DNA from: Candidatus Thorarchaeota archaeon
GTDB lineage: Archaea; Asgardarchaeota; Thorarchaeia; Thorarchaeales; Thorarchaeaceae
Reading direction: 5' to 3'
DNA length: 18,035 nucleotides
NCBI GenBank assembly: GCA_004524595.1
Contig: SDOA01000083.1
Coordinates: forward strand, 1-18,035
Below, in pieces: positions 350 to 18,035 of this stretch. Every line of letters begins with the position of its first letter. The first letter of the stretch is position 1. A program made the translations under genes and the position numbers. The notes under the pieces were generated by a model. It made no database searches. It was not told the origin of the DNA and saw only the letters and a list, made by a program, of their open reading frames with translations.

Positions 350-388
350 TAGAAAAATATGAACTGGAGATCATCAACAATGATCTCC
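350..388 (-). terminator. Hairpin plus T-tract terminator of the tldD-tldE operon
   Basis: Positions 366-374 (GGAGATCAT) and 380-388 (ATGATCTCC) form a perfect 9-bp stem around a 5-base loop. Read on the minus strand the stem is followed by AGTTCATATTTTTCT, a T-rich run. It lies 20 bases past the tldE stop codon at 408. The plus-strand side has no comparable T run, so it probably serves the minus-strand operon. Confidence 0.55.
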
Positions 389-407
389 GATTCACATATA
401 CTTGCTC

Positions 408-1802: not shown

Positions 1803-1820
1803 ATTTCATCAACTCCTATT

Positions 1821-3245
1821 TTATGCCTCTCCTCCAAACGTTACTTCATTGATGAGTAATTTAGGTCCGCCATCACCAACAGGTAGCGGAAATTGTTCAC
1901 CTTTACCACAGCCACCAAAATAACCTGCTGATAGTTTGATCTCTCTCGTTGCTCCCTCAACTTGTGATAGTAATTTCAATATATTACCAGAGAGAGCAAC
2001 TTCTCTTATTGGATATTGAATCTCTCCATTTTCAACCCAATATCCTCGGATAGCTTTAAACAAGAAACTTCCATCACCTTCAACTTGTCCCCCTGATGAT
2101 TGTATTGCAAACACTCCAGTGCCTAAATCAGCAATAGCTTCTTCCTCTGTTAAATCTCCTGCTGCAAAGAATGTATTTGTCATTCTTGGAATTGGTGGAA
2201 AGACGAAGTTTACCGCTCGTGCATTTCCTGTAGGTTCTTGACCTAATTTCTTTGCTGTACCTCGGTTATGTAGGAAATGTCGAAAAACTCCCTTATCGAG
2301 AATAGTGGTCAAATTGGAAGGAGTTCCTTGATCATCATATGGAAGCCAGAGGCCACCAAATTTCTTTATCTCCGGAACTCCACCATCTATTATGGATGCA
2401 TGTTGTGTTCCCAAAGTTTCACCTAATTTCTCTGAAAGTGGAGATCCTCCTGTAACTGCAAAATCCGCCTCGCTCAGATGACCAAACGACTCATGAGCAA
2501 GTACTCCTACGAGTTCTTCTTCTACAAGTGCTCTGAACTTGCCAGCAGGGCATGCCTTTGCTTGTAATTGTTCTTTAGCATTCTTCCCTGCTTTTTCTCC
2601 CATCGCCTCTGGAGTATGTTCTCCTTGTTCAAAAGCTTCTAAGCCAACGGTACCACCATAGCCTTCAGCTCCATTAACCATTGCTCCAGAGTCGGTCTTC
2701 GAAGTTACAAGCACTCTTAAATCCGTGACAAGCAGATTCCAATCAATCTCAGAACCATCACTATTTACAAACATCTTTGGTCCGTAGAGTTCTCCCCAAA
2801 GGGCTCTGATGCTCCTGATATTGTCTCCATGTTCTCGCGCTGAATCGACTTCTCTGTTTACCATATCGATTTTATAAGCAAGTTCTCTCTCTCGAGGGTG
2901 AATCTTTACTTGCAGAGTATCTGATATTTTACTTTTCACCGCATCTCTTCTATCAAAAGGCAGTTTGAGTTTTGCTGCACGTGATGATGCTTTTGCCATT
3001 CGGTAAGCTTTCTCTGTAGCTAAACGGATATCTTTCATCTCAGTACTAGGTGTAAACGAGAAACCAGATATCCCATCTACATACGCTGTGATGGCAAATC
3101 CCATACGTGATTTGACTTGAATATCTTGCCAGATATCGTTAATCCGTTGGAGTGTTCTCAATGTGAGATCCTCATATCTAGCTTCAATGAAATCCGCACC
3201 AAGGTCTTCACCGACGTGAACACTTTCTTGTAATTTATCTAACAT
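1821..3245 (-). CDS. tldD: TldD, zinc metalloprotease subunit of TldD/TldE
   Basis: This 474-residue protein matches TldD. It carries the zinc-binding HExxxH motif as HESFGH at residues 251-256, inside VLAHESFGHLSEADF. The conserved C-terminal cysteine that completes zinc binding in E. coli TldD is present near residue 446 in GYFGGCGKGEQFP, so the active site looks intact. The family forms a heterodimer with TldE, encoded immediately downstream, and the complex encloses the active site so that only unfolded or short peptides enter. The ATG has GAGAGG (3256-3261) ten bases upstream. It is the first gene of a two-gene operon; repeated TGACCA-like elements upstream may be regulatory. Confidence 0.95.
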   Translation of the reverse strand: MLDKLQESVHVGEDLGADFIEARYEDLTLRTLQRINDIWQDIQVKSRMGFAITAYVDGISGFSFTPSTEMKDIRLATEKAYRMAKASSRAAKLKLPFDRRDAVKSKISDTLQVKIHPRERELAYKIDMVNREVDSAREHGDNIRSIRALWGELYGPKMFVNSDGSEIDWNLLVTDLRVLVTSKTDSGAMVNGAEGYGGTVGLEAFEQGEHTPEAMGEKAGKNAKEQLQAKACPAGKFRALVEEELVGVLAHESFGHLSEADFAVTGGSPLSEKLGETLGTQHASIIDGGVPEIKKFGGLWLPYDDQGTPSNLTTILDKGVFRHFLHNRGTAKKLGQEPTGNARAVNFVFPPIPRMTNTFFAAGDLTEEEAIADLGTGVFAIQSSGGQVEGDGSFLFKAIRGYWVENGEIQYPIREVALSGNILKLLSQVEGATREIKLSAGYFGGCGKGEQFPLPVGDGGPKLLINEVTFGGEA

Positions 3246-3287
3246 TAGTATGAAACCTCTCTTCTCATTTAGTAGGATGCAGTTGGG

Positions 3288-3346
3288 TGGTCACTAACTA
3301 TTGAGATTCTGGTTATTTTTGACCAGCTATATGACCATTATATTAC
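3288..3346 (-). promoter_or_regulatory. Probable tldDE promoter/operator with repeated TGGTCA
   Basis: The 202-base gap upstream of tldD has no gene. It contains the hexamer TGGTCA (3288-3293), its complement TGACCA at 3320-3325 and again at 3332-3337 (exactly 12 bases apart), and a dyad CTGGT (3309-3313) / ACCAG (3322-3326). On the minus strand an AT-rich stretch, GTAATATAATGG, overlaps the distal copy and could be the TATA box. The repeats around it suggest an operator, but this is inferred from sequence only. Confidence 0.3.
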
Positions 3347-3447
3347 TTGAATCTTAATTACCTCTTTGAGCATCCTTGCTTCAATATCAAATTCTCCAAT
3401 TACTTTAAAGGATGACTCTTTACGCGAGTACTCATCTTGATACTACA

Positions 3448-4242
3448 TCATTTCATTTCTAATATTCGGTACCAATAGGTGTACATTGTTTCAAAACCCA
3501 GTGACCCGTAAAGTTCTAGAGCTGGAAAGTTTTTTGATTCCACTTGTAAGAATATCCGTGTTGCATTATTCTCTTCACCCCATATTCCTAGAGCACAGTT
3601 TATTGACCGTGCAACACCTCTGTGTCTGTACTCTTCTAAAGTCCTGATTGAGAAGAGGGCTAACCAGTCTTCTTTCACTACCCCTAATCCAATGCCAGCT
3701 ATTTTCCCGTCTATCATAACACGTGCAATAATCTTTTCACCTTCAATTCTTTTTATGATACTTCTCCTTGCTTGTTGTACGGTCTCATCAAATCCCGCAC
3801 TTTGAAAGAGTGCATTAATTGATTTATCTGACACTTTTAGAAGATCTACAGGAAACTCAGGATCTAAGCATGATAACTGATTGACTGGGAGTGTCTGCAC
3901 AAATGTTTTCATACGTTTCTCAAAACCCATATCTATAAGAGTTTCATCAAGTCCCTCAGGTTCACTTGCCTCCGTAATTTTAAAAGCTGGCACTGTATCT
4001 CTCTGTTCGTAGAATGATATTACATATTCGATAGCCTCTTCAAGTGCTTCATCATTGACTGGTTCAAGTGGATATACGCTATTGGCTCTCCAAGTTATAC
4101 CATCGTTCCATTGAATTATCCATCCTCTGTATCTCTCAACCTCTCTCCCTGGCCAACAGAGCAATGAGATATACTCCAAATCTGAGATGGCCTTTTTAGA
4201 TGCCATGTCTTCATATCTTACATTCCTGCATATAATATTCAT
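3448..4242 (-). CDS. GNAT-family N-acetyltransferase
   Basis: The frame stays open up to 4581, but only the part from ATG 4240-4242 looks like protein of this family, giving 264 residues. It begins with a typical GNAT first strand and helix (IICRNVRYEDMASKK). The catalytic GNAT domain is at the C terminus: the acetyl-CoA loop is seen in EYRHRGVARSINCALG, and the last part, LQVESKNFPALELYGSLGFE, is the standard motif B/C region. The N-terminal half is probably a second, degenerate GNAT-like domain. No Shine-Dalgarno lies before the ATG; a TATA-like CTATAT about 28 bases upstream suggests a leaderless transcript. The acceptor is unknown. It is divergent from the adenine methyltransferase gene. 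Confidence 0.85.
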   Translation of the reverse strand: MNIICRNVRYEDMASKKAISDLEYISLLCWPGREVERYRGWIIQWNDGITWRANSVYPLEPVNDEALEEAIEYVISFYEQRDTVPAFKITEASEPEGLDETLIDMGFEKRMKTFVQTLPVNQLSCLDPEFPVDLLKVSDKSINALFQSAGFDETVQQARRSIIKRIEGEKIIARVMIDGKIAGIGLGVVKEDWLALFSIRTLEEYRHRGVARSINCALGIWGEENNATRIFLQVESKNFPALELYGSLGFETMYTYWYRILEMK

Positions 4243-4312
4243 TGTCAGTATTGAATCTGTACAACTGATATAGAAAAGGAGAGATACTGCATCAAAACAT
4301 CTTTTTTGTGGA
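4243..4312. promoter_or_regulatory. Divergent promoter interval between acetyltransferase and adenine methyltransferase
   Basis: The interval is 70 bases. On the minus strand TTTTCTATATC (4267-4277) sits where a TATA box for a leaderless acetyltransferase mRNA would lie. On the plus strand the same region reads TGATATAGAAAAGGAGAG. The AGGAGA at 4277-4282 looks like a strong ribosome binding site, but no ATG, GTG or TTG in the methyltransferase frame follows it at normal spacing; the first is TTG 4313, 30 bases on. Confidence 0.4.
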
Positions 4313-6556
4313 TTGAGTATCAAACTTCGAGGTCCAATTTTGGAACAACAACTAGGATCTTTAGCATGGTCATTAGTCAGTGATATCCATGGTTGCATTA
4401 GCGTGGAGCGGTACAAACAAAAACGATTTGCAATTGAAGTGACACGTCTAGCTGCTTTGAATCTTCTCTTGAAATCTCGATTTGAATCTGAATATCTTGG
4501 TGTTGATAACAATGAATTATTACTCAACCATCTCTCTTTCGAAGGCGAACGAGCTGGATTCAACTCGTCTGAAGTGAACAATGAAGTATATTCTGTATTG
4601 GACTCTTACATGTTTGAATCTATGAAAAAAATACGACGAATGGATATTCATGAATTCATCGAGTTTTTTGGACAGATACACTCGGTTGCTTCGTATCATC
4701 TGCCTTTATCACTAAATCATAAGTCAAGACAGAGGTCTCTTGGTGCATATTACACACCTAAACCAATTGCTGACCATATCACAAATATCACATTATCCCC
4801 CATTCTCGAAAAAAAGATTAATGATTCTATTAAAGATGAAACATTTGATATGGATAACTTGTTCAATTTTCATTTAGTAGATCCTGCCTGTGGTACAGGA
4901 GTCTTCTTGACTTCCGTCTTTGAATTGATACAGCATTATTCGAAATTAGCAAGAAAGAAAGCCTTGGAAACTGGTATCTCAAAAAAACAATTAGAATGCA
5001 ACTATCAGAGTACCCTTCCTTATCTCTATGGTGTTGATTTGGACCTTGGAGTGCTTGAGGTTGCAGACTTTTCTTTACGTCTTCTCGAAAGTGTTCATAC
5101 TACACACATCTCAAAATCGCATCTCAATCATACTCTCAAAAGAGGTAATTCTTTATTCTCATTAAATGGACTCAGTGGTGAGAAAGATTATCGAAGTTTC
5201 TTCAACTCTATTGAAGATATGTTTCCTTTCGAGTGGTCTCAAGAATTTCCAAACATTATGAATAGAGAAAACGGTGGCTTTGATTTTGTTCTCATGAACC
5301 CTCCTTACGAGCGATTGAAGCCCAATCTCGCAGAGTTTATCAGAAACCGTTTGTTACGCGGTGATAGTCAAATACATTTGAATGCCTATAATTCTCACAA
5401 AGAACATATCAAGGAAGCAACAAAATACTATAGGAAATCTGGAGAATATTCCTATGCAACCAGCTATGCACTGAACACATATCTATTATTCATTGAACGT
5501 GCTTTGCAGCTGACACGGCAAGGTGGATTTGTGGGTTGCATTGTACCATCCACAATTCTCTGCGATGTATCTGCTCAGAATTTAAGGAATGAACTGCTTC
5601 TCAACAATACTGTTCACGCTATTGATAATTTCCCTGAGACCTCGCGAATCTTTCCTAACGTGACTCAAGCAGTCACCATTCTGACATTTTCTAAAGGAGG
5701 AACTACAAGTACTTTCAGTCTAGGACTTAAAAGAAAAAACCTTGCTGAGGCTCTAAATAAGAAAAGAATGGCTTTGGACCTGCATCTAATTACGAGAATT
5801 ATGGGTCAATCCTTAGTAATCCCGCAAGTAGATGGGAAGGGATATGCAATTCTTGAATCGATCCATCAACATCCTCCTCTATCATCTCATTCTGACATTA
5901 AAATTAATAGAGGTGAATTGGATCTCACAATAAATCGCAATCTCTATTCTATTAAGAAAACCATGATCCCTTTGATCAGAGGGTCGCAGATATCACGTTA
6001 TGGTCTAACTGACGCAGATCAAAAAACCAGATACGTGGATATGGATTTGCTACGAAGTTCGCTTGCAACATCAGGTCGCTTAGGACACATTGCAATGAAG
6101 AGAATCGCATGTCAACAGATATCTAATATGAATCAACGATGGCGTCTAAAATTTGCTCCTATTATGCCTAATTCCGTCTTAGCAAATTCTTGCAATTATA
6201 TAGTCCATACTCATTCCAAATCTCATAATCTGTATAATTATCTCTTAGGTATTTTAAATTCAGAACTTATGAATTGGAGATTTCAAATAACCAATTCGAA
6301 TAATCATGTCTCCATCAGAGAACTGCAGGCTCTACCACTGATACCTTTCAATGAGGGAGATAAAATCGTACAAGAACTATGTAAGGCCGTGAAAGAGTAC
6401 CGTGAATCCAAGTCTACATCAACTACTCTAATTGATGCTTATGTATTTACACTTTACAAGTTTGATAAAAGAGATGTGCTTTCTCTTCTTAATATGAGAA
6501 ACTGCCCCTCTGATGAACAAAAAGAAATTCTTACACACTTCAACGAATTATCTTAG
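4313..6556 (+). CDS. N6-adenine DNA methyltransferase, Eco57I/TaqI type
   Basis: This 747-residue protein is a gamma-type amino-methyltransferase. In order it shows the motif X signature GAYYTP (144-149), the AdoMet-binding motif I DPACGTG (190-196), a GVDLD turn (240-244), and the catalytic NPPY (329-332). The C-terminal 530-690 region resembles the target-recognition domain of Eco57I/TaqI-like enzymes (RGELDLTINRNL, IPLIRGSQISRYG, RIACQQISN). The 140-residue helical N terminus has no PD-(D/E)xK nuclease motif that I can see, so it looks like a methyltransferase only, shorter than type IIG fusions of about 1000 residues. The TTG start is weak; the frame is closed by a TAG at 4271. It is followed 56 bases later by a cytosine methyltransferase, and the two probably form one modification unit. 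Confidence 0.88.
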   Translation: MSIKLRGPILEQQLGSLAWSLVSDIHGCISVERYKQKRFAIEVTRLAALNLLLKSRFESEYLGVDNNELLLNHLSFEGERAGFNSSEVNNEVYSVLDSYMFESMKKIRRMDIHEFIEFFGQIHSVASYHLPLSLNHKSRQRSLGAYYTPKPIADHITNITLSPILEKKINDSIKDETFDMDNLFNFHLVDPACGTGVFLTSVFELIQHYSKLARKKALETGISKKQLECNYQSTLPYLYGVDLDLGVLEVADFSLRLLESVHTTHISKSHLNHTLKRGNSLFSLNGLSGEKDYRSFFNSIEDMFPFEWSQEFPNIMNRENGGFDFVLMNPPYERLKPNLAEFIRNRLLRGDSQIHLNAYNSHKEHIKEATKYYRKSGEYSYATSYALNTYLLFIERALQLTRQGGFVGCIVPSTILCDVSAQNLRNELLLNNTVHAIDNFPETSRIFPNVTQAVTILTFSKGGTTSTFSLGLKRKNLAEALNKKRMALDLHLITRIMGQSLVIPQVDGKGYAILESIHQHPPLSSHSDIKINRGELDLTINRNLYSIKKTMIPLIRGSQISRYGLTDADQKTRYVDMDLLRSSLATSGRLGHIAMKRIACQQISNMNQRWRLKFAPIMPNSVLANSCNYIVHTHSKSHNLYNYLLGILNSELMNWRFQITNSNNHVSIRELQALPLIPFNEGDKIVQELCKAVKEYRESKSTSTTLIDAYVFTLYKFDKRDVLSLLNMRNCPSDEQKEILTHFNELS

Positions 6557-6612
6557 TCAATTCACATTAAGAAATTAGAAAGACTTTCAAAGTGAAGAGG
6601 CGTACTTAACAT

Positions 6613-7842
6613 GTGAACATTATTACTTCTCAAACAATAGATTGGAAAAACAACGCTGATAAATTGCTATACAATCATGTATGTGCTTCACTCAGTGAAT
6701 TCGATATGGAAGTAGTGAGGTCTGTCCCTTCTGGCGGAAATTGGCAAGACATTCCTGATTATATAATCGCAAAGTCTGCAAGATTAACACAAATTAAAAA
6801 ATCAGGAGGGAGAACAACATATTATGGAAGATTAAGTGGTGAGTATCCTAGCTACACAATCAACACCTACTTTAATCGACCTGGTAATGGTACTTTTATT
6901 CATCCTGTTCAACATCGTTTAATCTCATTGAGAGAGGCTGCACGGCTGCAATCATTTCCTGATGAGTATATATTCGGAGGTAGTATGACCTCCCAATTCA
7001 AACAAATCGGAAATGCTGTACCGCCATTACTTGCAAAAATGATTGGCAAATCTATAAAGAAAGGACGAAGCGTCGATTTATTTTGTGGGGCTGGTGGATT
7101 ATCTGAGGGTTTAGTTCAGGCTGGCCACAAAATTTTGATCGCTTGCGATTGGAATGCCAATATGTGTGAATCTTATGTTAGAAATCATCAACATACAAAG
7201 GTCATTCAAGTTAATATGAATGATTCAGAACATATAGTCGATCTCATCGATTTAGTCGAATCAGAATTGAGGGGAAGAACTCTCAATTTGCTTGCAGGTG
7301 GTCCTCCCTGTCAGGGATTCTCCACAGCTGGGAAGTGGCAACCATCTGATATAAGGAATTCTTTATTATTTCAGACTCTAGATATCATTCAGCATTTTAG
7401 ACCTAACACAGTACTATTAGAGAATGTTCCAGGAATTAGATCATTACAGAAAGGACTAATCCTTGAAAAATTTGTTAATGCTCTCCAAAGTTATGGGTAT
7501 TTCACTGACATTATACTCCTGAAAGCTGAAGAGTATGGTGTTCCTCAGCTACGGAGAAGAGTCTTTATCATAGCTAACACAGACGGCTATCACTTCAGTA
7601 AGCCGACTGGATTACTCGCTCCAGTAATGCAAGGTAGAAAGAAGCATGAGTCAGATCTTAGGAAGATCGAACAGCCACCTCCCATATCAGTAAATGAAGC
7701 AATCTCCGATATGCCACCAATATCGTCAGGTCAGGGTGATGATGTAATTGATTATGATGCATCATGGATAGAGACTGATTATCAACGACTAATGCGAGGA
7801 ATTATTTCCGTTGATGAATTCTTTAAGAATAGAGCTGAATAA
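6613..7842 (+). CDS. Circularly permuted C5-cytosine DNA methyltransferase
   Basis: All key C5-methyltransferase motifs are present but rotated. The motifs that normally close the protein come first: IX as REAARLQSFPD (107-117) and X as QIGNAVPP (131-138). Next come motif I DLFCGAGG (155-162), motif IV GGPPCQGFS with catalytic Cys233, motif VI ENV (270-272) and motif VIII QLRRR (312-316). The C terminus (EAISDMPPI ... YQRLMRG) is the pre-recognition segment, and the N terminus (LLYNHVCASLSEFD, then PSGGNWQDIP) is what normally follows it, so the two ends fit together. The order recalls M.BssHII. The enzyme should make 5-methylcytosine. GTG 6613 is the only start after an in-frame TAA; AAGAGG lies 12 bases upstream. 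No cognate nuclease is seen. Confidence 0.9.
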   Translation: MNIITSQTIDWKNNADKLLYNHVCASLSEFDMEVVRSVPSGGNWQDIPDYIIAKSARLTQIKKSGGRTTYYGRLSGEYPSYTINTYFNRPGNGTFIHPVQHRLISLREAARLQSFPDEYIFGGSMTSQFKQIGNAVPPLLAKMIGKSIKKGRSVDLFCGAGGLSEGLVQAGHKILIACDWNANMCESYVRNHQHTKVIQVNMNDSEHIVDLIDLVESELRGRTLNLLAGGPPCQGFSTAGKWQPSDIRNSLLFQTLDIIQHFRPNTVLLENVPGIRSLQKGLILEKFVNALQSYGYFTDIILLKAEEYGVPQLRRRVFIIANTDGYHFSKPTGLLAPVMQGRKKHESDLRKIEQPPPISVNEAISDMPPISSGQGDDVIDYDASWIETDYQRLMRGIISVDEFFKNRAE

Positions 7843-7897
7843 GGTTGATTAGTGAAATGATACTCTCTCCTATTCAACAATAAAAATTTGCAGTGTT

Positions 7898-9613
7898 TTG
7901 GGTGGTTCAAAAGATTTGATAGCTGGTGCAATACTATATGACCTTCTAGGCTCCAAAGTACTTGCATCTCTTAGTTTCACTCAAACTGAATATACTAATG
8001 AATTCCTACAGGCTATTGCTACTGAATACTATGTATTGCTTGAGGAGGATGCTGCAAAGAACTTTGTCAGCACTAAGATATCCGAACATGCAATCACAAT
8101 ATCAAGAATTGGTGATGTAACCCTGATTATCACCATTAGTGATACTGACTCATTTACAGACGATGAGATAGTGCGAATACGAAAACTTCAGTGGCTTGCA
8201 TCTGAAGAAGTTGATACGTCCTCGGTACGTAATTTCAAAGAGCATTTCGTAGATTTGGTTGATGAACACCTGAGGATTCACTTGTCTATCTGTTTTGTCA
8301 TTCCTAGAGACCTCCCTCCAGAAGACGTATCTGGAGCTACTATTGAAGCACTGGTTCGAAGAACAGGGGACAACCGTCTAGCTCTAAGTAATCCTGTGTT
8401 GATTGGACCCTACTCGGTAAAATCCATGCAAGTCTATTATGACGAAATTATAGGAGATAGATTGCCAGACAATATCTCGCATATTCATATCTTTGCAATG
8501 GTGTCTTCAAAACATCAATCAGAACTGAATATGATTGAAGAAGCTGTTCTTAAGATACGATCATTAGGCGAATCGCTAGTTATCGTGATTCCTAGTTCTG
8601 ACAATGAATTGGAATACACACGCAACTTGGAGTATACACTTAGAGTTGACCTCTGCGATTCAGTCTCTCCAAAGCCATCTTACCTATTACTTGCTGTCCT
8701 CGCTACCTCTGGATACAGTGATATGCACCCTGAGTTGGCAAGAGAAAAATGGTTAATCGATATGGCTATTGATACACCAAAAGAACAATCTCAAGAAGAT
8801 GATGAAGAAGAATTAGGACATCAAGCCTTTTTCGTTGTTGACAGAAGAACTGGTGAAGCCATTTACAGTTACTATTACGAGGAGCGGTCTCGGATTCTTG
8901 AGATGGCTCCAAATATTGTTGCAGCTATAACCTCCTTTAAGATAGATCAGAGCAAATCTGCAGAGACCTCGGTCTTTAGGACAGGTGAGTTGAGCTATAT
9001 CACAATAGAACGGAATGAATACATCTTTACTCTCATAACAGGGAAAAATGCCGATGTTGAAAAGCTCCGGAATAGATTCTCGTTTCTACCAGACCTGTTT
9101 CAGGATGAGGTGCCTGAACTCATTGATGATCCAATAGATTTGTTCAGGTCACCTTTATTTACAATCAAACTTCTAGCAACATTGCCTCCAGAGGACCTTC
9201 CAGGACGTGTGGCACCAAAGCAAAAAAAGGCGCTTATATGGGAACGATTTGAGCATCCATCCGTTCGTGATTTCTTGCAAGCCGTGTGGCAGAAACTTGA
9301 CGGTGCCTTTACGGTGTCACGACTAGTCCCCAGCCAAGGTCCTGAACTTGTTTTGGGAGCCATTCACCTGCTGAAGAGATTAGATGCCATCATATTTCAT
9401 ATCAAAATAACACAAGAAGATGCTCCAATACTTCGTACTACTCCAGATGCTGAAACTTTGGCGCTTTATGCTCAGCTGGATAATATTCTTGAATTTGTGA
9501 ACGGAATACATACGATTCAGAATATTGCAATGGCAATGAAGATGCAACCAAGTGTGCTTGTGACAGTATTCACTGAGTTACATAGGAGAGGAGTTGTAAC
9601 ATTCAATGAATGA
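7898..9613 (+). CDS. Multi-longin, pseudo-GTPase-like protein with C-terminal winged helices
   Basis: I do not recognise a named family. The 571 residues divide into a probable longin-like domain (about 1-105), an alpha/beta domain (about 126-295), an acidic linker (296-307, QSQEDDEEELG), a clear longin/roadblock-like domain (308-400, FFVVDRRTGEAIYSYYYEE then GELSYITIERNEYIFTLITG), and two winged-helix-like segments (about 455-505 and 520-571). The order parallels the next protein, whose middle domain is a GTPase. Here the middle domain keeps the strand-helix-strand pattern (HIHIFAMVSS ... LVIVIPSSDNE) but has no P-loop, DxxG or NKxD, so it may be a pseudo-GTPase. The TTG start is poor: no Shine-Dalgarno, and the open frame extends to 7856 with no ATG or GTG. 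It lies 55 bases after the methyltransferase gene. Confidence 0.7.
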   Translation: MGGSKDLIAGAILYDLLGSKVLASLSFTQTEYTNEFLQAIATEYYVLLEEDAAKNFVSTKISEHAITISRIGDVTLIITISDTDSFTDDEIVRIRKLQWLASEEVDTSSVRNFKEHFVDLVDEHLRIHLSICFVIPRDLPPEDVSGATIEALVRRTGDNRLALSNPVLIGPYSVKSMQVYYDEIIGDRLPDNISHIHIFAMVSSKHQSELNMIEEAVLKIRSLGESLVIVIPSSDNELEYTRNLEYTLRVDLCDSVSPKPSYLLLAVLATSGYSDMHPELAREKWLIDMAIDTPKEQSQEDDEEELGHQAFFVVDRRTGEAIYSYYYEERSRILEMAPNIVAAITSFKIDQSKSAETSVFRTGELSYITIERNEYIFTLITGKNADVEKLRNRFSFLPDLFQDEVPELIDDPIDLFRSPLFTIKLLATLPPEDLPGRVAPKQKKALIWERFEHPSVRDFLQAVWQKLDGAFTVSRLVPSQGPELVLGAIHLLKRLDAIIFHIKITQEDAPILRTTPDAETLALYAQLDNILEFVNGIHTIQNIAMAMKMQPSVLVTVFTELHRRGVVTFNE

Positions 9614-9669
9614 TGACATCATAGTAAGCTTCAATTGGTTGAGAAAAATAGATAACACCTAAGAACTGA

Positions 9670-9706
9670 CCTATATTAGAATAGATGCACAAGTAGTGAT
9701 GACTCA
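9670..9706 (+). promoter_or_regulatory. TATA-like element before the longin-GTPase gene
   Basis: CCTATATTAG at 9670-9679 lies 28 bases before the ATG at 9707, which fits an archaeal TATA box driving an almost leaderless transcript. A weak GTGAT (9696-9700) could serve as a ribosome binding site. The upstream gene ends at 9613, so this gene may have its own promoter. Confidence 0.35.
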
Positions 9707-11656
9707 ATGATACACAACGTTCTTCTCATCAGGAAAGATACGGGGGACGTTGTAGTCCGAACAAGGTTTTGGAAGATTGATTTTCTGGAAGGCGATATTA
9801 AAGAGTTCCTTGCTGGGCATAGGGACCTCCAGAATACAGAGGGTCTCTCACCAGATACCCCTGTCTTTGTTGCTGAGAAGCATAAAGTATTCCATTCTGA
9901 AGTTGATGGTGAGATGCTTCTTCTCTTCGTGACTGATGGACGTGATGAAGATCGAGCAATTCAGTACCGTGTACGCGAGGGTGCATCACGTATTTCGACT
10001 GCCCTCCGTGGAAATAGTATGGGGTATATCCGCGATAATCTCGACGACATACTCGGTGAGCTAATCTTCACGAGGTTCAAAGTATCATTTGTTGGGTCGG
10101 GTGGTGTCGGTAAATCAACGCTCCTCAGGCTTCTCTTTGGGAAGGAACCTGCACCTGGAGGCTATACACCTACAATCAACGTTGCGGTCGATTCGTCCGA
10201 AACAATTCAGTTCGGAACTTTCCTTGTCACAGTGTGGGATTTTGCAGGACAGGCGGTCTTTCAAGATCTCTGGAGTTTCTACTTTTCAGGCACCGATGTT
10301 ATCTTTCTCGTGACTGATTCGAGCTTCAGAAATGTCATGCAGACCAAGTCTCTTCTACGAACTATCCGCAAAGAGGCTCCCGCAGTTCCACTTTTTATCA
10401 TTGCAAACAAGCAGGACCTTCCAGAATCGATGAAGGCTGAGAAGATCAAGAGACTTCTAGGTGCACCGACATTTCATATGATTGCAACTGACAAATCACG
10501 ACGAGAGGAGTTCATTCGTCTAATGCTCGAAGTCGCAGCAAAGACTGTGGGTGTTACACTTCCAGACTTACCAATATCTGAGATGATCACAGTTCGACGA
10601 GGTCCTGAGGAAATAGATCAACCAGGGTCCACAGCAGCAAAAGAAAGAAGTACAGCTCAAGGCTCTGGATTTGAAACAGTCCCGTATGAAGTTCAGACTG
10701 ATATTCAAGAAATATCTGGATCCAAGCAGACAGATACACAGACCACTCAACAAATTACCACAACAAAACAGATTGAAACAACAACAGAGGTTATCGCCTC
10801 AGTTCCTGAACACAGTCAGGTCCTCCACCTCTTGTTTATATTGCCTAGTGACGGTATGCCTGATGTAATTTATCATCTCAATTATGTTGATGAGGAAATT
10901 GATAAGAACGCAGTTGCATCATTGATTTCTGCTCTTGATTCATTCGGAGGAATTGATAGTAGTTCTGCTGATGATGGTTCTGGTACAACTAATGCACTTG
11001 AAACCATCGAACATGAAGGTAACCTTGTTATGGTAGAGAAGTCGAAACATTTTGTAATGGCTCTCATCGTAAGTAATGATAGTGAAGAGAAAGAGCAGAG
11101 ACGAATCCTGAATTCCCTTCTGATTACCATTGAACAGAAATATCATGATATCTGGAACACGTGGAAAGGCGATCTTACAGTCTTCGAATCCTCAGTCTTT
11201 GAAGTCCTTACGGAGATTCCTCTTCGTGCTGTTAGTTTCGATTACATTGTTCGAGCAAGAGAGGCTGGACGACCACTACCCTTTAGCAGTCGAGATGTTG
11301 GTTTTGCAATTGTCGAAGTACAGTCCGCTATTGAGAGTAATGAGACCGTTGGGGGACTAGTACGAAGCTTAGATATTCCACGCGAGACCGTTCTAGGCAG
11401 TCTTCAGATTTTGAGTAAATATGGTTGGATTGACTTCAAAGTAGAGCTTGGTCCCACAAACCACCTTAAGAAACGAGGTGTAGTTGATGAGAATACTGAG
11501 AAGGCATATGGTGCTGTGGTTGTAAAATTTGTCGATTTATGTGATGGAACAATTTCCCTCGAAGACGTTGTACGAAAACTCAACGTGAGTCTTCCAGCAA
11601 TGAAATTCGTGGCCACCAAGCTAGTCCTTGATGGCGTTCTTGAGATTGTTGCATAA
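9707..11656 (+). CDS. Longin-Arf-like GTPase-longin-winged helix protein
   Basis: The 649-residue protein has several domains in series. Residues 1-110 look like a longin domain (MIHNVLLIRKDTGDVV). Residues 122-285 are a small GTPase with P-loop GSGGVGKS (130-137), switch I Thr near 156 (YTPT), G3 WDFAGQ (177-182), G4 NKQD (234-237) and a G5-like IATD (259-262); the Trp-Asp form resembles Arf, Rag and other Asgard GTPases. Residues 300-370 are a Gln/Thr-rich linker. Residues 371-480 form a second longin/roadblock-like domain, and 495-580 and 600-649 are winged-helix-like. All GTP-binding motifs are intact. A GTPase followed by a longin-fold domain recalls Rag GTPases. It is the co-linear partner of the preceding gene and probably acts with it as a heterodimer. 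No transmembrane segment or C-terminal lipid-acceptor cysteine is seen. Confidence 0.82.
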   Translation: MIHNVLLIRKDTGDVVVRTRFWKIDFLEGDIKEFLAGHRDLQNTEGLSPDTPVFVAEKHKVFHSEVDGEMLLLFVTDGRDEDRAIQYRVREGASRISTALRGNSMGYIRDNLDDILGELIFTRFKVSFVGSGGVGKSTLLRLLFGKEPAPGGYTPTINVAVDSSETIQFGTFLVTVWDFAGQAVFQDLWSFYFSGTDVIFLVTDSSFRNVMQTKSLLRTIRKEAPAVPLFIIANKQDLPESMKAEKIKRLLGAPTFHMIATDKSRREEFIRLMLEVAAKTVGVTLPDLPISEMITVRRGPEEIDQPGSTAAKERSTAQGSGFETVPYEVQTDIQEISGSKQTDTQTTQQITTTKQIETTTEVIASVPEHSQVLHLLFILPSDGMPDVIYHLNYVDEEIDKNAVASLISALDSFGGIDSSSADDGSGTTNALETIEHEGNLVMVEKSKHFVMALIVSNDSEEKEQRRILNSLLITIEQKYHDIWNTWKGDLTVFESSVFEVLTEIPLRAVSFDYIVRAREAGRPLPFSSRDVGFAIVEVQSAIESNETVGGLVRSLDIPRETVLGSLQILSKYGWIDFKVELGPTNHLKKRGVVDENTEKAYGAVVVKFVDLCDGTISLEDVVRKLNVSLPAMKFVATKLVLDGVLEIVA

Positions 11657-13786
11657 CTAGGTCTTGATTATTATTCTTTGTTTATAACTTGGAATCATAA
11701 CACCTTTTGGTTCTGCATAGACTGGAGTATGGACCATTATACGTTTGCCTTTACATGAATTGACATAATTTTCGAGATTCGTAGATGATGAGTGTGCACT
11801 CAACCGAGCATACTCTACATGACACTCATGAGGTTCATATCCATGGAGGAGGTTCCATCCTGGTGTTCTTGGGGCAAGATAACCGCAGAGTATCACTGCT
11901 GCATTAGGATTACCTCTCTGTTCATTAAAATGATGTCGCGCCAGTCCACCAGCCATCATTCCTCCACCTGCGACCAACACATCATCTTCTTGCAAATTTA
12001 TTCTATTCTTTTTCATGCTATCCCAATGACCAGTGACACCTACGATTTTTGTGACTCGTTCGGCCATTCCAGTAACCATGACATTCTTGTTCCTTGTGAT
12101 ACCAAGTTCTTCTAGTATGAGTAATATTTCCTGGGAACGTCCTACAGCAAAACTTGGAATTATAATAGGACCAAAATCTGAAATGGTCTTACTAATTTGC
12201 TGCTTGACTTTTTCTCTATCAAAATCCTCTCTTCCCCAGTATGTGCCATCAAAAATTGTGTAGTCTGCATCTGTTGGTAAGTTTGCTCCGGGGAAGAGTA
12301 CAGATGCATCCATGTTGAAATCACCTGTGTAGAGTATCTTCACACCTTCAATATCTATCGAGTAAATAGCGCTTCCAGGAATATGGCATGCATCAATTGG
12401 TGTTACTACGATTCCTGGACCTACTTCATTACTTACACCATATTCCAATTGAACATGATTCTTTGTTACCTTTTCAATGTTAGATTCATTGTAACGAGAG
12501 ATTAAATCCAGAGGATCATACTTGCGTGGTGGAAAAGGAGTGCCTACTTTGAGAGCATCATCAAGTAGGATTTTTGTGATTGCTCCACTTGGACCAACTG
12601 AACACCACTTGCCTGTGAACTCCTGGAACAATACAGGAAGTCCACCAACATGATCTAAGTGTGAATGACTTACAAGAACTGTGTCTATCATATCAATTTC
12701 AGGAACCCATTCAGGAATCCTATGATTTGCAACTGAAAGTCCATAGTCAAGTAATATACCTCCAGTATCAGTCTTGATAAGAACACCACTCCTGCCTATT
12801 CTATGTCCTCCGAGGAAGATGATTTCGATAATCTTTGTTTTCGTAGAATACGCAACTGCTGGTAGTAGGCTAACGCGAAGTTTTTGCGGGATGAGTTCGA
12901 ATATGACAGGGTCGATTGCATCTCCGGGTGTTGGAGATTTCAACTCTTGAAGTTTTACTGGTAAGTTTGAGTCGCGATTTGTCTTGAATCCCTCTTTAAC
13001 GAAGACCTGTTGCATTAAATCGACAGATTTCTCAACAGTCATGTTTGAGGTTATTTTCTTCTGGGCGACCTCATAGACATCTCTCTTCTTGATTCTCGTA
13101 AGATTAAGAAGAACTACGTCTGGAGCCCAATCCTTTAGTACCTCATAACTCTCTAATAATGAAAGCTCCTGTACAGCTTCTTGCAAATACTGCGGATGCC
13201 GCATCACAGCATCAACAAGACGAAATTGATTGGTTTCTAATGCAGATTTGATATCGATGCCCAATTCAGTAGCAGGTTCGATAAACAAAGACGGCTCGAA
13301 TAATGGTGCTCCTAGGAACTGAATCCAGTAACGAACCTCCTTTAAGATTTCAGCTTCAGATTCATTATTAATAGCTGATAGATATAGTAAGGCTTTCCTT
13401 AGCCATCTTTCAATTGGTGTTTGATTACGAATATATCTCAGTGAATATCGATATAGATATCTAAAATCCTCTTCATTATAATTACCCATTATAAGTCCAT
13501 GGATACAGAGAGTCATTGCGTTGATGATGTCCTGAACAGTCGTATCATCTCGTGCATCAAGGAAAATCTGCATAAGTACATCATTGACTGATGATGCAAT
13601 AGAGAGGTTCTCTGTACTTATGTTTGAAGTCTGAGCGAGCTCAAAGACAATTAACTCTCGTGACTCTCCTAACAGTCCCTCCCCTTCTGGTATCTTTTTT
13701 CCTCTCTGAATCGATTTCAAATCATTCTCTGCTTGTTCGAATGTCTGTTTGATTTTCTTATGTTTAGTCTTTAGGAGGGTTTTCAC
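11657..13786 (-). CDS. Beta-CASP metallo-beta-lactamase RNase (CPSF-like) with novel N-terminal domain
   Basis: The C-terminal 390 residues are a beta-CASP nuclease of the CPSF73/aCPSF kind. Counted from GTG 13795, they show HSHLDH (377-382), His471 in ACHIPGS, GDF (491-493), motif A FDGTYWG (515-521), PSFAVGRSQE (547-556), motif B His621/622 and motif C His668 in LSAHSS. The zinc ligands are therefore complete, and it should cleave RNA endo- or exonucleolytically. The first 320 residues are mostly helical and match no family I know; the KH domains of aCPSF1 are absent. Two starts are possible. I prefer GTG 13784-13786 because GGAG (13795-13798) lies 8 bases upstream; GTG 13793-13795 would add three residues. 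It follows the NAD-kinase-like gene by about 40 bases and abuts the GTPase gene tail to tail. Confidence 0.85.
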   Translation of the reverse strand: MKTLLKTKHKKIKQTFEQAENDLKSIQRGKKIPEGEGLLGESRELIVFELAQTSNISTENLSIASSVNDVLMQIFLDARDDTTVQDIINAMTLCIHGLIMGNYNEEDFRYLYRYSLRYIRNQTPIERWLRKALLYLSAINNESEAEILKEVRYWIQFLGAPLFEPSLFIEPATELGIDIKSALETNQFRLVDAVMRHPQYLQEAVQELSLLESYEVLKDWAPDVVLLNLTRIKKRDVYEVAQKKITSNMTVEKSVDLMQQVFVKEGFKTNRDSNLPVKLQELKSPTPGDAIDPVIFELIPQKLRVSLLPAVAYSTKTKIIEIIFLGGHRIGRSGVLIKTDTGGILLDYGLSVANHRIPEWVPEIDMIDTVLVSHSHLDHVGGLPVLFQEFTGKWCSVGPSGAITKILLDDALKVGTPFPPRKYDPLDLISRYNESNIEKVTKNHVQLEYGVSNEVGPGIVVTPIDACHIPGSAIYSIDIEGVKILYTGDFNMDASVLFPGANLPTDADYTIFDGTYWGREDFDREKVKQQISKTISDFGPIIIPSFAVGRSQEILLILEELGITRNKNVMVTGMAERVTKIVGVTGHWDSMKKNRINLQEDDVLVAGGGMMAGGLARHHFNEQRGNPNAAVILCGYLAPRTPGWNLLHGYEPHECHVEYARLSAHSSSTNLENYVNSCKGKRIMVHTPVYAEPKGVMIPSYKQRIIIKT

Positions 13787-13794
13787 TTTAGTCA

Positions 13795-13798
13795 CTCC
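13795..13798 (-). promoter_or_regulatory. Ribosome binding site deciding the beta-CASP start
   Basis: On the minus strand GGAG is followed, after eight bases, by GTG at 13784-13786. The same GGAG abuts or overlaps the alternative GTG at 13793-13795, which would leave that start without a usable site. An ATG at 13798-13800 is out of frame. Confidence 0.45.
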
Positions 13799-13827
13799 AT
13801 AAATCTAGCTGGGCTCCTTTTTGAACA

Positions 13828-14877
13828 TCATGTTGTTTCATTTACCTTGTATATACCTTGCCTGCTATCTCTTAGTGATAGATGTTTCATGACCAGTCCT
13901 TCACTCATTAATAAAGACAGAGCGTACCGAACTGTTCGGGGAGGTAATTTTGTCTCCTCTATTATTTCCTTCTGACTCAGCTGTCCCTGATATTCTAATA
14001 CCTTCAGAACCAGTTTAGCGCTGGGAGGAAGCTCATGCGCCAGATCTTCTGAGGTCTCTGCTTTCTTGAGTAACTTACCCCTCAGCTCTGCTACTCGTTC
14101 AATATCGAATTTGACGAAGACTGCATTCTGTTTGGCTTTTCTAATTCTGAGTGGTTTAGTGTCTATTTTTCTTCTAATCTGCCCATCGAGTACAGCCTCT
14201 ATAGCTACCGAACTCGTCAGATCCTGAATAGTAATCTCCAAGTCATCTGAGAGAACGAGTGGTCTACGTGATGGATTTACGCTATTTACAGGAATGATTG
14301 AAAAGACCTTGGCCGAGTTCAAAATAACAGGTCCTCCAATACTCAATGAATATGCTGTACTCCCTGTTGGAGTTGCAATAATCAAACCATCGCTCCCGTC
14401 TTTCCAAAAATGTTCACCATCAACCAATAAAGAATATCGGATTAGAGTAGCACTCCTCTTTGCAAAAATGCCAATCTCATTCAGTAATGGAGGTGTTTCT
14501 CTGCCTGAGATATCTGCAACAAGTCTTGTCTTTTCTTCTTTTGACCATCTAGATGCAATAAGGTCATCAACTACAGCTTCGAAATTAGTTACAAGGACAT
14601 CAAATAAGAAGTCAGGTTGCCCCATGGATGCAATAGGCAAGATTGGTGCATTTGTATGTCCTAGGTCCAGAAGAGATCTCAGGAGAAATCTGTCAGACCC
14701 AATAATGGCAAGGACATCCACATCCATTTTCTTCAATGGAATCCCCTTCGCCTTAAAAGACTCAGCAAGTTTCTCTTCCAGAACAAAATCGACACCACTC
14801 TCTTTCAGAATATTAATAACATTCCTTGAATCCTCTACCATTCCCGATTCAGGTCCTGAAACAACACCGATTTTCAT
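13828..14877 (-). CDS. NAD kinase-like protein fused to a winged-helix DNA-binding domain
   Basis: The first 270 of 349 residues are NAD-kinase fold (NadK/PpnK), and 280-349 form an archaeal winged helix (LPPSAKLVLKVLEYQGQLS, then LPPRTVRYALSLLMSEGLV). NAD-side motifs are kept: NE (133-134), SDGLIIATPTGSTAYSLS (162-179) with GGP (181-183), and LDGQ (230-233). The ATP-side GGDGT is changed to GSDRF (60-64), keeping only the first Gly and the Asp, and the usual GxLGFL is MGQPDFL (85-91). It may be a divergent kinase that converts NAD to NADP, or a sensor that has lost activity. The ATG has GGAGG (14886-14890) eight bases upstream, so the open frame to 14985 is not used. It is the first gene before the beta-CASP gene and is divergent from nadA. 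Confidence 0.85.
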   Translation of the reverse strand: MKIGVVSGPESGMVEDSRNVINILKESGVDFVLEEKLAESFKAKGIPLKKMDVDVLAIIGSDRFLLRSLLDLGHTNAPILPIASMGQPDFLFDVLVTNFEAVVDDLIASRWSKEEKTRLVADISGRETPPLLNEIGIFAKRSATLIRYSLLVDGEHFWKDGSDGLIIATPTGSTAYSLSIGGPVILNSAKVFSIIPVNSVNPSRRPLVLSDDLEITIQDLTSSVAIEAVLDGQIRRKIDTKPLRIRKAKQNAVFVKFDIERVAELRGKLLKKAETSEDLAHELPPSAKLVLKVLEYQGQLSQKEIIEETKLPPRTVRYALSLLMSEGLVMKHLSLRDSRQGIYKVNETT

Positions 14878-14946
14878 TGAGTATTCCTCCACTCTGTTCT
14901 CATCGTTTATTTTTGATTCATTACTCTCCTTAAATGACCTTCTGAT

Positions 14947-14969
14947 GAACTGGCAAATGTTGCCGGTTC
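14947..14969. promoter_or_regulatory. Candidate operator: 10+10 bp palindrome between the NAD-kinase-like gene and nadA
   Basis: GAACTGGCAA (14947-14956), a three-base spacer ATG, and TTGCCGGTTC (14960-14969) form an inverted repeat with one mismatch in ten pairs. Its centre, 14958, is about 80 bases from the NAD-kinase-like start and 90 from the nadA start. Half-sites of this size suit a dimeric winged-helix protein. No T-tract follows it on either strand at terminator distance, and it lies between two divergent starts, so an operator is more likely than a terminator. Confidence 0.5.
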
Positions 14970-15047
14970 TTTTTCCACAGTCCACTCTTTGCCTTTTAAG
15001 ATTCCATTAAAAGCCAAATTAAAAATGAAAAACATGGTGCACGCTTC

Positions 15048-16016
15048 ATGAACCATGATTTCAACGACCTTCAGAAAAAAATCCTCAAACTTAAGAAAGA
15101 AAAGAAAGCACTCATTCTTGCTCATAATTATCAGACCCTGGATATTCAAGAGATTGCAGACTTCGTTGGAGACTCATTACAATTAGCACGAAAATCCGCT
15201 GAGCCAAATGGTTACAACATGATAATTTTTGCTGGGGTCAAATTCATGGCTGAGATGGCTGCAGTGCTCTCGCCGGGCGTACCTGTCTTCATTCCTGATC
15301 CGAGAGCTCTTTGTCCTCTTGCTGCTTACCTAGATGCTGAAAAGATCAAGCAAAAAAAGAGGGAATATCCTGGTGTTCCTGTAGTTGTGTATGTTAACAC
15401 TACCGCAGAAGCAAAATCTGAAGCTGACTATATCTGCACCTCTGGTAGTGCAGTTGAAGTCGTTGAATCCTTGGGCGTAGATAGGGTGATCTTTGGTCCT
15501 GATGCAAACTTAGCTGATTATGTTCGTGATCACACAGATGTCGAGATTATTGATCTTGATGAGGAGGGTCACTGTTATGTTCATGACAAGTTTGAACTTT
15601 ATATGTTGGAAGACCTGAAGAAGAGGTATCCCGACTCACTAGCAATTGCCCATCCAGAATGTCCTGTTGAAGTCCAACGAGCAGCAGATATGATTGGTTC
15701 TACAGGAATGATGGCAAATACTGTGGCTGAGACTGATGCAAAGATAATCCTTATCGCCACAGAGATGGGAATGGTACAGCAATTACAGAAGGCACATCCT
15801 GAGAAGACGATCATTCCTTTCTTTGATGCTGCAGTATGTCGACAGATGAAAAAACACACTCTTGAGAAAATTCTCAATGTTCTAGAAAATAGACCAGAAG
15901 AGAATCTTGTTACTGTGCCTGAAGAATATGTTCCTCATATTCGGGAAATTCTTGAGAGGATGAATAAGGTACGCGGCCAAGGACCTGCTACAGCAGTAGC
16001 TGTTGAAACGATGTGA
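15048..16016 (+). CDS. nadA: Quinolinate synthase NadA
   Basis: The 322-residue product is NadA, which condenses iminoaspartate with dihydroxyacetone phosphate to quinolinate in de novo NAD synthesis, using a [4Fe-4S] cluster. The three cluster cysteines are Cys89 (DPRALCPLAA), Cys176 (EEGHCYVHDKF) and Cys264 (AAVCRQMKKH); the conserved HPEC (202-205) and the N-terminal LAHNYQ (25-29 region) are also present, so the enzyme looks complete. The ATG is preceded by GGTG (15036-15039) at eight bases. It is divergent from the NAD-kinase-like winged-helix gene, and a palindrome lies between them. No nadB or nadC partner is in the window. It converges with the HAD gene, 14 bases between stops. Confidence 0.96.
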   Translation: MNHDFNDLQKKILKLKKEKKALILAHNYQTLDIQEIADFVGDSLQLARKSAEPNGYNMIIFAGVKFMAEMAAVLSPGVPVFIPDPRALCPLAAYLDAEKIKQKKREYPGVPVVVYVNTTAEAKSEADYICTSGSAVEVVESLGVDRVIFGPDANLADYVRDHTDVEIIDLDEEGHCYVHDKFELYMLEDLKKRYPDSLAIAHPECPVEVQRAADMIGSTGMMANTVAETDAKIILIATEMGMVQQLQKAHPEKTIIPFFDAAVCRQMKKHTLEKILNVLENRPEENLVTVPEEYVPHIREILERMNKVRGQGPATAVAVETM

Positions 16017-16030
16017 TAGGTATCTCTCTT

Positions 16031-16684
16031 TCATAGATTTGTGATATAGACCAAAATCTCATGACGGTTGGTGATAATTGGACCAGAATGACCTGCTCTT
16101 CGAAAGTCATCGTAGGTGAACATGTCTTCCAGTGCAATGAACTGGCAAAAGTTCTTTGACCGTTCATAGTCTTTTATCGAGTCGCCAACAAAGACCATCT
16201 CATCAAATGGAATATTGAACTTACTATGAAGATAGTTAAAGTGATCTGCTCCTTTTTCAAAACCTGGTCTATATCCTAAGATGGCTGTGAATAAATCCAA
16301 GATTCCTCTTCTTCTAAAATACTCCTCAATTGTTGACTGAAATGTCGAAGAAGAAACAACAACATTGAATCCTCTCTTCTGTAGTTCTCTTACGGTTTCC
16401 TCTGAATCAGGAAAGAGCTCTTGTTCAAAAATCCGGTCTATCTTCATCCTCTCGAATTCTTCAATGGCAATCTCATTCTTCGGATGTTCTGGAAAATTCA
16501 TCTTTATTTGATGTTCATACGGCAGACCTGTTGTGCTTCTATAACGTTTGATGGCTTCATTCTCTGGAACACCAAAGTATTTCATCATGATTTTAACGCC
16601 TATGCTCTCTAAGAATGGCATGGAATTTGCTAATGTCCCATCAAAATCGAATATCACCGTGCTACGCACAATTTTTTCATTCAT
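16031..16684 (-). CDS. HAD-family phosphatase (phosphoglycolate phosphatase-like)
   Basis: A 217-residue HAD hydrolase of the subfamily IA kind. Motif I is DFDGT, with both Asp residues, near the N terminus, followed by a helical cap of about 75 residues. Motif II is VVSSS, motif III the Lys in GFEKGADHF, and motif IV VGDSIKDYE. It should be a cytosolic Mg-dependent phosphatase for a small phosphorylated compound; the substrate cannot be named. TTG 16691-16693 and GTG 16685-16687 would extend it by up to three residues. I chose ATG 16682-16684 because GAG lies nine bases upstream. It lies downstream of the pyrophosphatase gene on the same strand, 82 bases apart, with a weak hairpin between them. 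Confidence 0.88.
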   Translation of the reverse strand: MNEKIVRSTVIFDFDGTLANSMPFLESIGVKIMMKYFGVPENEAIKRYRSTTGLPYEHQIKMNFPEHPKNEIAIEEFERMKIDRIFEQELFPDSEETVRELQKRGFNVVVSSSTFQSTIEEYFRRRGILDLFTAILGYRPGFEKGADHFNYLHSKFNIPFDEMVFVGDSIKDYERSKNFCQFIALEDMFTYDDFRRAGHSGPIITNRHEILVYITNL

Positions 16685-16734
16685 CACAAGCAACTCGTTT
16701 TTGGTGTTTTTCGAACTCTAAATTGATGCTCTTT

Positions 16735-16749
16735 AGACCGTTTTGGTCT
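16735..16749 (-). other. Short hairpin after the pyrophosphatase gene
   Basis: AGACC and GGTCT form a 5-bp stem around a 5-base loop, 17 bases beyond the pyrophosphatase stop. There is no strong T-tract directly after it on the minus strand, so a terminator role is uncertain. Confidence 0.25.
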
Positions 16750-16766
16750 GTCGAGCTATTGAATTA

Positions 16767-17288: not shown

Positions 17289-17403
17289 TTGTATCCATAT
17301 TTCTAGAGTCTAAAGAACGATTTGAGTCTTATTGACCAACAAAATGATTACACACAAGCCTTTATGTATCGAATTTCATTCAATATAACAATCATTAACT
17401 CTC

Positions 17404-17408
17404 GGAGG
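17404..17408 (+). promoter_or_regulatory. Strong ribosome binding site of the membrane protein gene
   Basis: GGAGG lies seven bases before GTG 17416, which selects this GTG over the overlapping out-of-frame GTG triplets at 17412 and 17414. Confidence 0.6.
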
Positions 17409-17415
17409 TACGTGT

Positions 17416-17979: not shown

Positions 17980-18035
17980 ACTCTTCTCGAGGACATTAGA
18001 GATTGATTTAATTAAGGCTTCGAATGTCGACAGAC

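Follow-up and report, generated by a model that had tools for sequence, protein, structure and literature searches.

A predicted active and a degenerate Rag-like GTPase chain encoded side by side, behind nuclease-less DNA methyltransferases, in Thorarchaeota

The closest known kind of the protein pair described here is the Rag-like longin-GTPase-roadblock proteins of an Asgard archaeon. In MK-D1, longin-GTPase-roadblock fusions have been described, including one Rag-like pair encoded in an operon and predicted to form a roadblock heterodimer (PMC10933270). We analyzed a Candidatus Thorarchaeota contig (SDOA01000083.1, positions 1 to 18,035; this whole stretch of 18,035 nucleotides is called the window) that carries two adjacent genes, for which we coined the names ARM1 and ARM2. 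The ARM proteins share with the MK-D1 proteins the longin-GTPase-roadblock order, the probable encoding as an operon pair and the proposed heterodimer through roadblock domains; they differ in having a dead partner, winged helices and neighboring methyltransferases, of which we found no mention for MK-D1, the strings 'winged' and 'methyl' occurring 0 times in the main text (PMC10933270). Our best explanation as a whole, to which we give a probability of about 0.6, is that ARM1 and ARM2 are a duplicated Rag-like heterodimer, made of an active and a dead chain, in a probable operon behind a nuclease-less pair of DNA methyltransferases. An earlier sequence-only reading of this DNA had suggested an undescribed GTPase switch: the dead/active pairing stands, and the architecture is in part already known from the MK-D1 fusions and operon pair (PMC10933270).

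All features of the pair lie on the + strand, and the domain make-up was computed. ARM1 (7916..9613) encodes 565 amino acids from a TTG at 7916, the open reading frame having earlier been started at 7898. It comprises a longin domain (7916..8278, residues 1-121), a pseudoGTPase domain recognized as a GTPase fold by structure (8270..8722, residues 119-269), a roadblock/longin domain (8810..9121, residues 299-402) and two winged helices (9248..9613) predicted from the secondary structure of the AlphaFold2 (AF2) model and from homology to the ARM2 C-terminus. No match to ARM1 was found in Pfam, NCBIfam or PADLOC. After a gap of 93 bp, ARM2 (9707..11656, 649 amino acids) encodes a first longin domain (9707..10069, residues 1-121), an Arf/Rag-like GTPase domain (10070..10561, with the G1 motif GSGGVGKS at 10094-10117), a poorly conserved linker modeled with low confidence (10592..10807; predicted local distance difference test, pLDDT, <50 for residues 296-367), a second longin domain (10811..11227, residues 369-507) and two winged helices (11264..11656) predicted from the secondary structure of the model. 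The GTPase domain matches the Pfam families Arf (E 1.4e-18), Roc (1.2e-16) and Gtr1_RagA (2e-5), and single TRAPP longin chains match the ARM2 longin domains in structure comparison. Both chains carry longin platforms, as had been read from the sequence, and the longin fold is found in ARM1 as well.

Winged helices are absent among the matches listed by VIA-align for the two structures. The median net charge of the C-terminal part is -3 for the last 136 residues of ARM1 and -2 for the last 150 residues of ARM2; DNA binding through the winged helices is unsupported, given these negative values. The link to DNA proposed earlier on account of these domains is not supported in that form, and a different one emerged, in the shape of two DNA methyltransferase genes directly upstream that the sequence-only reading had not mentioned.

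Paralogy and motif loss were computed from homologue sets of 67 sequences for ARM1 (chosen from the best 120 of 181 hits) and 58 for ARM2 (from the best 120 of 243), which yield shallow alignments (effective sequence numbers, Neff, of 2.6 and 2.1). In a profile-profile comparison, the alignment of the two families begins at the first residue, reaches the last winged helix and covers 535 columns at 18% identity (E 1.1e-7, Prob 94). In genome-wide searches, the ARM1 profile by itself picks up the C-terminal portion of ARM2 with E down to 2.6e-10. ARM1 and ARM2 are full-length paralogues, in line with the co-linear pair first proposed, whose short matched segments we could reproduce. In a small set, the ARM1 profile is also co-linear with stand-alone longin-GTPases, over residues 1-232 (E 8e-7) and 1-246 (E 1.5e-6), which indicates that the ARM1 middle domain is of GTPase descent.

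The GTP-binding motifs are confined to the second protein, as previously noticed. G1, G3 and G4 are present in 58/58 ARM2 homologues; G1 and G3 are present in 0/67 ARM1 homologues, and an NKxD-like string occurs in one of the 67. At the NKxD site, ARM1 has a conserved patch (8591..8632) with the family consensus PGSDxxLExARxxE. Among the 67 homologues, P226, R236 and E239 are conserved in 67, D229, L232 and E233 in 66, A235 in 64, and G227 and S228 in 62; the copy in the window deviates by S for G and T for A. Residues G164, L246, D248 and S251 are also invariant. Such a patch is the mark of a constrained pseudoGTPase that would have retained a job, rather than of mere decay.

In eukaryotes, both chains of the Rag/Gtr heterodimer bind nucleotide. 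As in the ARM pair, its two chains are paralogous and place a GTPase domain before a roadblock domain, and ARM1 finds Rag/Gtr chains 8fw5_D, 3r7w_A and 6s6a_A by Foldseek. The succession of a Ras-superfamily GTPase domain and a roadblock/longin domain is present in ARM1 (by fold) and in ARM2. In contrast to Rag/Gtr, ARM1 lacks G1 and G3 (by motif), and the ARM pair adds an N-terminal longin domain and C-terminal winged helices. Since ARM1, dead by motif, fails the defining Rag feature, we class the pair as Rag-like and not as Rag. We propose that ARM1 and ARM2 would most likely heterodimerize through their roadblock/longin domains, ARM2 acting as a GTP-hydrolyzing switch that cycles between states and ARM1 as a fixed partner, scaffold or regulator; their paralogy and adjacency lend this dimer indirect support.

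Both chains may have arisen by fusion of a longin-GTPase module and a longin-winged helix-winged helix module, and their sequences look like such fusions. Below, genomes and loci carry the prefixes G and L. In G001, two longin-GTPase proteins of 307 and 297 amino acids are adjacent (L130), and comparable adjacent pairs can be read from the coordinates in G201 and G207. In two genomes without ARM genes, G074 (L132) and G071 (L131), two longin-GTPases are encoded on the same strand, separated by one or several genes. GTP motifs are intact in 10/10 longin-GTPases checked. G001 also encodes, next to each other, two separate longin-winged helix-winged helix proteins, 299 and 281 amino acids long (L031, 1045-2771), which match the C-terminal half of ARM2 as homologues (E 2e-30 and 1.5e-23). 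That adjacent duplicates of each separate module exist favors dimerization, on sequence grounds. As a side observation, the genes intervening in L131 and L132 are conserved, and some encode proteins starting with a PRGL...WD.K.GL motif.

The distribution of the pair was surveyed by profile searches in 227 genomes of the phylum. With a cut-off of E up to 1e-5, the ARM1 profile matches 38 genomes; in G214 the match is a cross-hit to ARM2, so that 37 genomes remain with ARM1; ARM2 orthologues, defined by a best row of E 1.7e-118 or lower (weaker rows being paralogues), occur in 39. Both genes are found in 36 genomes and are adjacent in 33, so that the linkage expected from the sequence-only reading is borne out in relatives; in G191, G200 and G213 they lie on separate contigs. 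Named homologues are mostly from Thorarchaeota with few other Asgard labels, and 21/23 loci are titled Thorarchaeota. A viral origin was considered and rejected: scanning viral contigs with the ARM2 profile gave 23 pattern-matching stretches and 0 confirmed relatives.

Directly upstream of ARM1, also on the + strand, two methyltransferase genes follow each other. MTase6A (4313..6556) encodes an N6-adenine DNA methyltransferase, probably of the Alw26I/Eco31I/Esp3I type (TIGR02987, E 2e-84, 284 bits, below the cut-off of 353.5), with no cognate nuclease nearby. DCM5C (6613..7842) encodes a C5-cytosine DNA methyltransferase (PF00145, E 1.6e-62) that is circularly permuted, with motif X before motif I, and the PADLOC model PDLC03237 matches both genes in tandem. 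The permutation is known from M.Alw26I, M2.Eco31I and M.Esp3I (PMC5944983). With these systems the present locus shares the combination of an N6-adenine enzyme and a permuted C5 enzyme and, judging by its footprint, probably the GTCTC core of the target; it differs in that no cognate endonuclease was found here, in its lineage-wide retention and in leaving GGTCTC undepleted. In the C5 relatives (31, two of them nuclease-linked), motif X precedes motif IV and motifs IV, VI, VIII and X are present throughout, with a strict motif I in 25/31 and near variants in the other 6. Among the 25 N6 relatives (again two nuclease-linked), NPPY is found in all and the motif I pattern in 23, the other two reading DPCCGPG and DPAAGPG.

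Synteny was computed on 33 of the 37 ARM1 loci, the contigs of G185, G194, G208 and G216 ending too early. The C5 gene lies directly upstream of ARM1 on the same strand in 30/33, with gaps of 64-280 bp, and the N6 gene upstream of the C5 gene in 27 of these 30, within 220 bp in 26 and, in G192, at a distance of 1260 bp; for G191, G209 and G224, the contig that carries ARM1 and the C5 gene yielded no N6 gene. The two methylases and ARM1-ARM2 probably form a four-gene operon and would then be co-transcribed. The nuclease family TIGR02986 is matched in only 2/227 genomes, both below the cut-off of 443.85 bits: G190 (401 bits, full length) and G201 (278 bits, truncated by the contig end). There, two methyltransferases face the nuclease in Alw26I-family restriction-modification loci (L114, L115), which are separate from and do not adjoin the ARM genes. 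In both methyltransferase trees, which are unrooted, these nuclease-linked copies split off with a Shimodaira-Hasegawa-like approximate likelihood ratio (SH-aLRT) support of 100 (2 versus 29 rows for C5; 2 versus 23 for N6, of which three, L104, L112 and L117, come from contigs without a visible ARM link). A locus titled Lokiarchaeota (L018) is organized like those of Thorarchaeota and clusters with L021 in both trees; its label may be wrong. The methylases beside ARM1 are most likely a domesticated, nuclease-less pair.

Persistent orphan methyltransferases are known in archaea, persistence being defined as occurrence in 75% or more of a taxon that has at least five genomes (PMC10609329). The present pair resembles them as methylases without a nuclease that are apparently retained through a taxon; the 20 type II orphans listed in that survey are single genes with sites of 4-5 bases, all but one palindromic, and the one Asgard genome that it included had 0 m5C (5-methylcytosine) genes (PMC10609329). 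Our persistence figure of 30/33 for the C5 gene has ARM1-bearing loci as its sole denominator. By titles and abstract openings in the openly licensed literature, we found no report of the combination of a GTPase pair with methylases, nor of an Asgard methylation mark at (H)GTCTC.

The expected mark at the Alw26I-type core GTCTC is, we presume, GTm5CTC, with m5C in the top strand, and deamination of this base is expected to convert GTCTC to GTTTC. We measured observed-to-expected (O/E) ratios from a Markov expectation in samples of 40-100 kb per genome, for 12 of the 30 genomes with a C5 gene beside ARM1. In 307,775 pooled bases of pair loci, GTCTC is the most depleted 5-mer with an expectation >50 (408 vs 609) and GTTTC the most enriched. 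All 12 genomes have O/E of 0.44-0.83 for GTCTC and 1.13-1.36 for GTTTC, and of 1280 C>T pairs, GTCTC>GTTTC holds rank 1 to 9. The footprint is absent from natural losses: in six genomes without the pair (G002, G218, G219, G071, G145, G100), the first three being relatives that lost the C5 gene or both methylases, the ratios are 0.83-1.14 and 0.92-1.09, with ranks of 95-1099. The difference between 12 and 6 genomes has Mann-Whitney p values of 2.2e-4 (GTCTC) and 1.1e-4 (GTTTC), kinship being ignored; G218 and G219 probably share a single methylase loss. When G195 and three controls of 20 kb are added to the six, full separation of the 12 from these 10 is achieved by one word of 512 only, GTTTC. 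The 12 genomes show no depletion of GGTCTC (O/E 0.85-2.02). For HGTCTC only, the GTTTC-to-GTCTC ratio under a codon-shuffle null is 1.84-6.75 in the 12 versus 0.91-1.72 in 9 others (G219, 1.41). The high O/E of GTCTG and GTCTA is likely a by-product of the Markov expectation because both share the GTCT prefix, which GTTTC does not.

Several results weigh against this interpretation. GTCTC has the lowest t in the 12-versus-10 comparison but overlaps, with 0.79-1.20 in the 10, and its O/E alone fails to separate even the smaller groups, G186 and G219 both standing at 0.83. Under the codon-shuffle null, the GTCTC/GTTTC values of G186 (0.92/0.90) show no signal and those of G001 (0.88/1.22) and G189 (0.96/1.22) a weak one, and the control G219, without the pair, reads 0.76/1.15. 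Separation under this null is full only with the exclusion of GGTCTC, which was chosen after inspection of the data. Finally, the signature is present in G203, G210, G212, G214, G215 and G223, where an intact pair was not found. The MBL/beta-CASP gene that neighbors the locus was also not found (E up to 1e-40) in G203, G212, G215 and G223, nor in G195 and G220. As this neighbor is missing too, the ARM locus seems to be unassembled in these six genomes, which say little on loss. The G210 contig breaks inside the MBL gene, and in G214 a stretch of N covers the beginning of ARM2. G195 shows neither signature nor locus, and G190, with only the nuclease-linked pair, carries the signature, as expected.

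Other C5 enzymes are present in many of these genomes: most of the 12 pair genomes hold a second, canonical C5 gene of about 330 amino acids, and G212, G214, G215 and G223 hold other C5 genes. G218, G219 and G195 have no PF00145 match and alone cannot tell which enzyme matters. In G199, DCM5C is the sole PF00145 gene and the footprint is present; in G002, DCM5C is lost, another C5 enzyme of 330 amino acids is kept and the footprint is absent. This contrast points to DCM5C as the C5 enzyme behind the footprint. Other C5 enzymes without the footprint are also seen in G145, G123 and G183. Being a record of past methylation, the footprint may outlast the enzyme. We conclude that the methylase pair would methylate, or would recently have methylated, (H)GTCTC as GTm5CTC, the mutation footprint suggesting the modified base.

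Two other compositional signals were seen. Many sampled genomes (L135-L229) also have CCAGG among their most depleted 5-mers, with z of -8.3 in G186 and -4.7 in G218, where no C5 gene was found; in G002 it is not among the lowest. In G190, G212 and G214, the probability of C after GGTCT is 0.16-0.18, below most pair genomes, as if GGTCTC were also a target; the codon-shuffle O/E of GGTCTC is 0.93, 0.80 and 0.62, respectively, and is clear in G214 only.

How the switch and the methylases relate, whether by co-regulation, by control or reading of the mark or by plain neighborhood, is a separate matter. There is close to an even chance that a stable stretch of chromosome simply holds two unrelated modules, a membrane or signaling switch and a housekeeping DNA mark. 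The convergent MBL/beta-CASP gene downstream is kept in place about as well as the methylases, and the order of MBL/beta-CASP, NAD kinase and NadA is mostly retained in relatives; neighbors outside the methylase-ARM block being kept as well, synteny alone is weak evidence for coupling. Further points tell against a strict association: G218 and G219 retain ARM1-ARM2 without either methylase, the C5 gene beside ARM1 is the single loss in G002, G190 has ARM2 with neither ARM1 nor the orphan pair, G200 has no ARM2 match in the 655 bp from ARM1 to the contig end, and seven loci around ARM2-like/longin-GTPase paralogues (L128-L134) hold no full-length relative of either methylase. Mere neighborhood does not, however, readily account for the common strand and the short C5-ARM1 gaps described above, nor for TldD-TldE, which is missing in 6 loci reaching at least 5.6 kb beyond the N6 gene while TldD is present in 8. 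Moreover, the only complete methylase pairs seen away from ARM1 are nuclease-linked, the G187 and G216 contigs stopping inside the C5 gene. Under our preferred explanation, the methylase pair would mark (H)GTCTC as GTm5CTC from its upstream position in the putative operon. Functional coupling of switch and methylases is a tentative proposal, with the odds leaning against it, and its most specific form, a GTP-switched epigenetic module in which the ARM1-ARM2 heterodimer controls, places or reads a lineage-wide (H)GTCTC mark, is unlikely.

ARM1 and ARM2 occupy the place beside the methylase pair that the nuclease holds in G190 and G201, and might thus substitute for it in a restriction-like defense, acting on DNA without the GTCTC mark. 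We consider this highly improbable. In G218 and G219, ARM1-ARM2 are present, no methylase of the pair was found and GTTTC is not enriched, so unmethylated GTCTC seems to be tolerated and a toxic effector restrained by the mark is unlikely. Pfam, NCBIfam and PADLOC scans found no nuclease domain in either protein, and PADLOC gave a single weak LeoBC row for ARM2 (E 0.0067); ARM1-ARM2 are probably not a restriction effector. Alternatively, the pair could resemble NPRL2-NPRL3 or Mon1-Ccz1 and serve other small GTPases as a longin-based guanine nucleotide exchange factor or GTPase-activating protein, the GTPase domain of ARM2 then being of secondary importance. The best Foldseek matches are the SEA-complex chain 8adl_S for ARM1 (E 1.6e-6) and the KICSTOR-GATOR1 chain 9o5a_H for ARM2 (E 4.9e-5), chains of the complexes to which NPRL2-NPRL3 belong; Mon1-Ccz1 and Fuzzy-Inturned/CPLANE are matched by both proteins and BLOC-3 by ARM1. 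These multi-domain matches have query TM-scores of 0.12-0.20 and root-mean-square deviations of about 12-32 A, so that single domains carry them. NPRL2-NPRL3 is a longin heterodimer with winged helices and, to our knowledge, lacks a GTPase-fold domain, which ARM1 and ARM2 each possess. Mon1-Ccz1 and other tri-longin exchange factors have three longin domains per chain, whereas ARM1 (by structure) and ARM2 (by motifs) have a GTPase fold in the middle; TRAPP subunits are single-domain longin or TRAPP-domain proteins, in contrast to the multidomain ARM chains. With ARM2 itself keeping its GTP motifs in every homologue, an exchange or activating role for other GTPases is improbable, and the pair is better compared with a Rag-like GTPase heterodimer than with the Mon1-Ccz1 or TRAPP exchange factors, which had been named before along with Rag.

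Downstream, ARM2 and the convergent MBL/beta-CASP gene abut tail to tail at 11656-11657, with 0 bases between them. The MBL/beta-CASP protein has 712 amino acids, about 320 of which precede the MBL domain. In G190 a two-component gene pair lies between ARM2 and this gene; the order is kept in most relatives. Further on (13828-15047), a NAD kinase whose C-terminus carries a winged helix (HTH_24, E 7.8e-6) and NadA are encoded divergently, 62 bp apart; in relatives having the gene, the match extends across the winged helix, and the kinase could be a NAD-sensing regulator of nadA.

An active/dead GTPase pair whose modules survive as separate gene pairs would make the origin of heterodimeric Rag-type switches testable biochemically. 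The m5C mark at (H)GTCTC is predicted from sequence alone, and relatives without the enzymes offer natural knock-outs. If true, the epigenetic-module reading would mean that, among the archaea related to eukaryotes, a Rag-like signaling switch is joined to DNA methylation.

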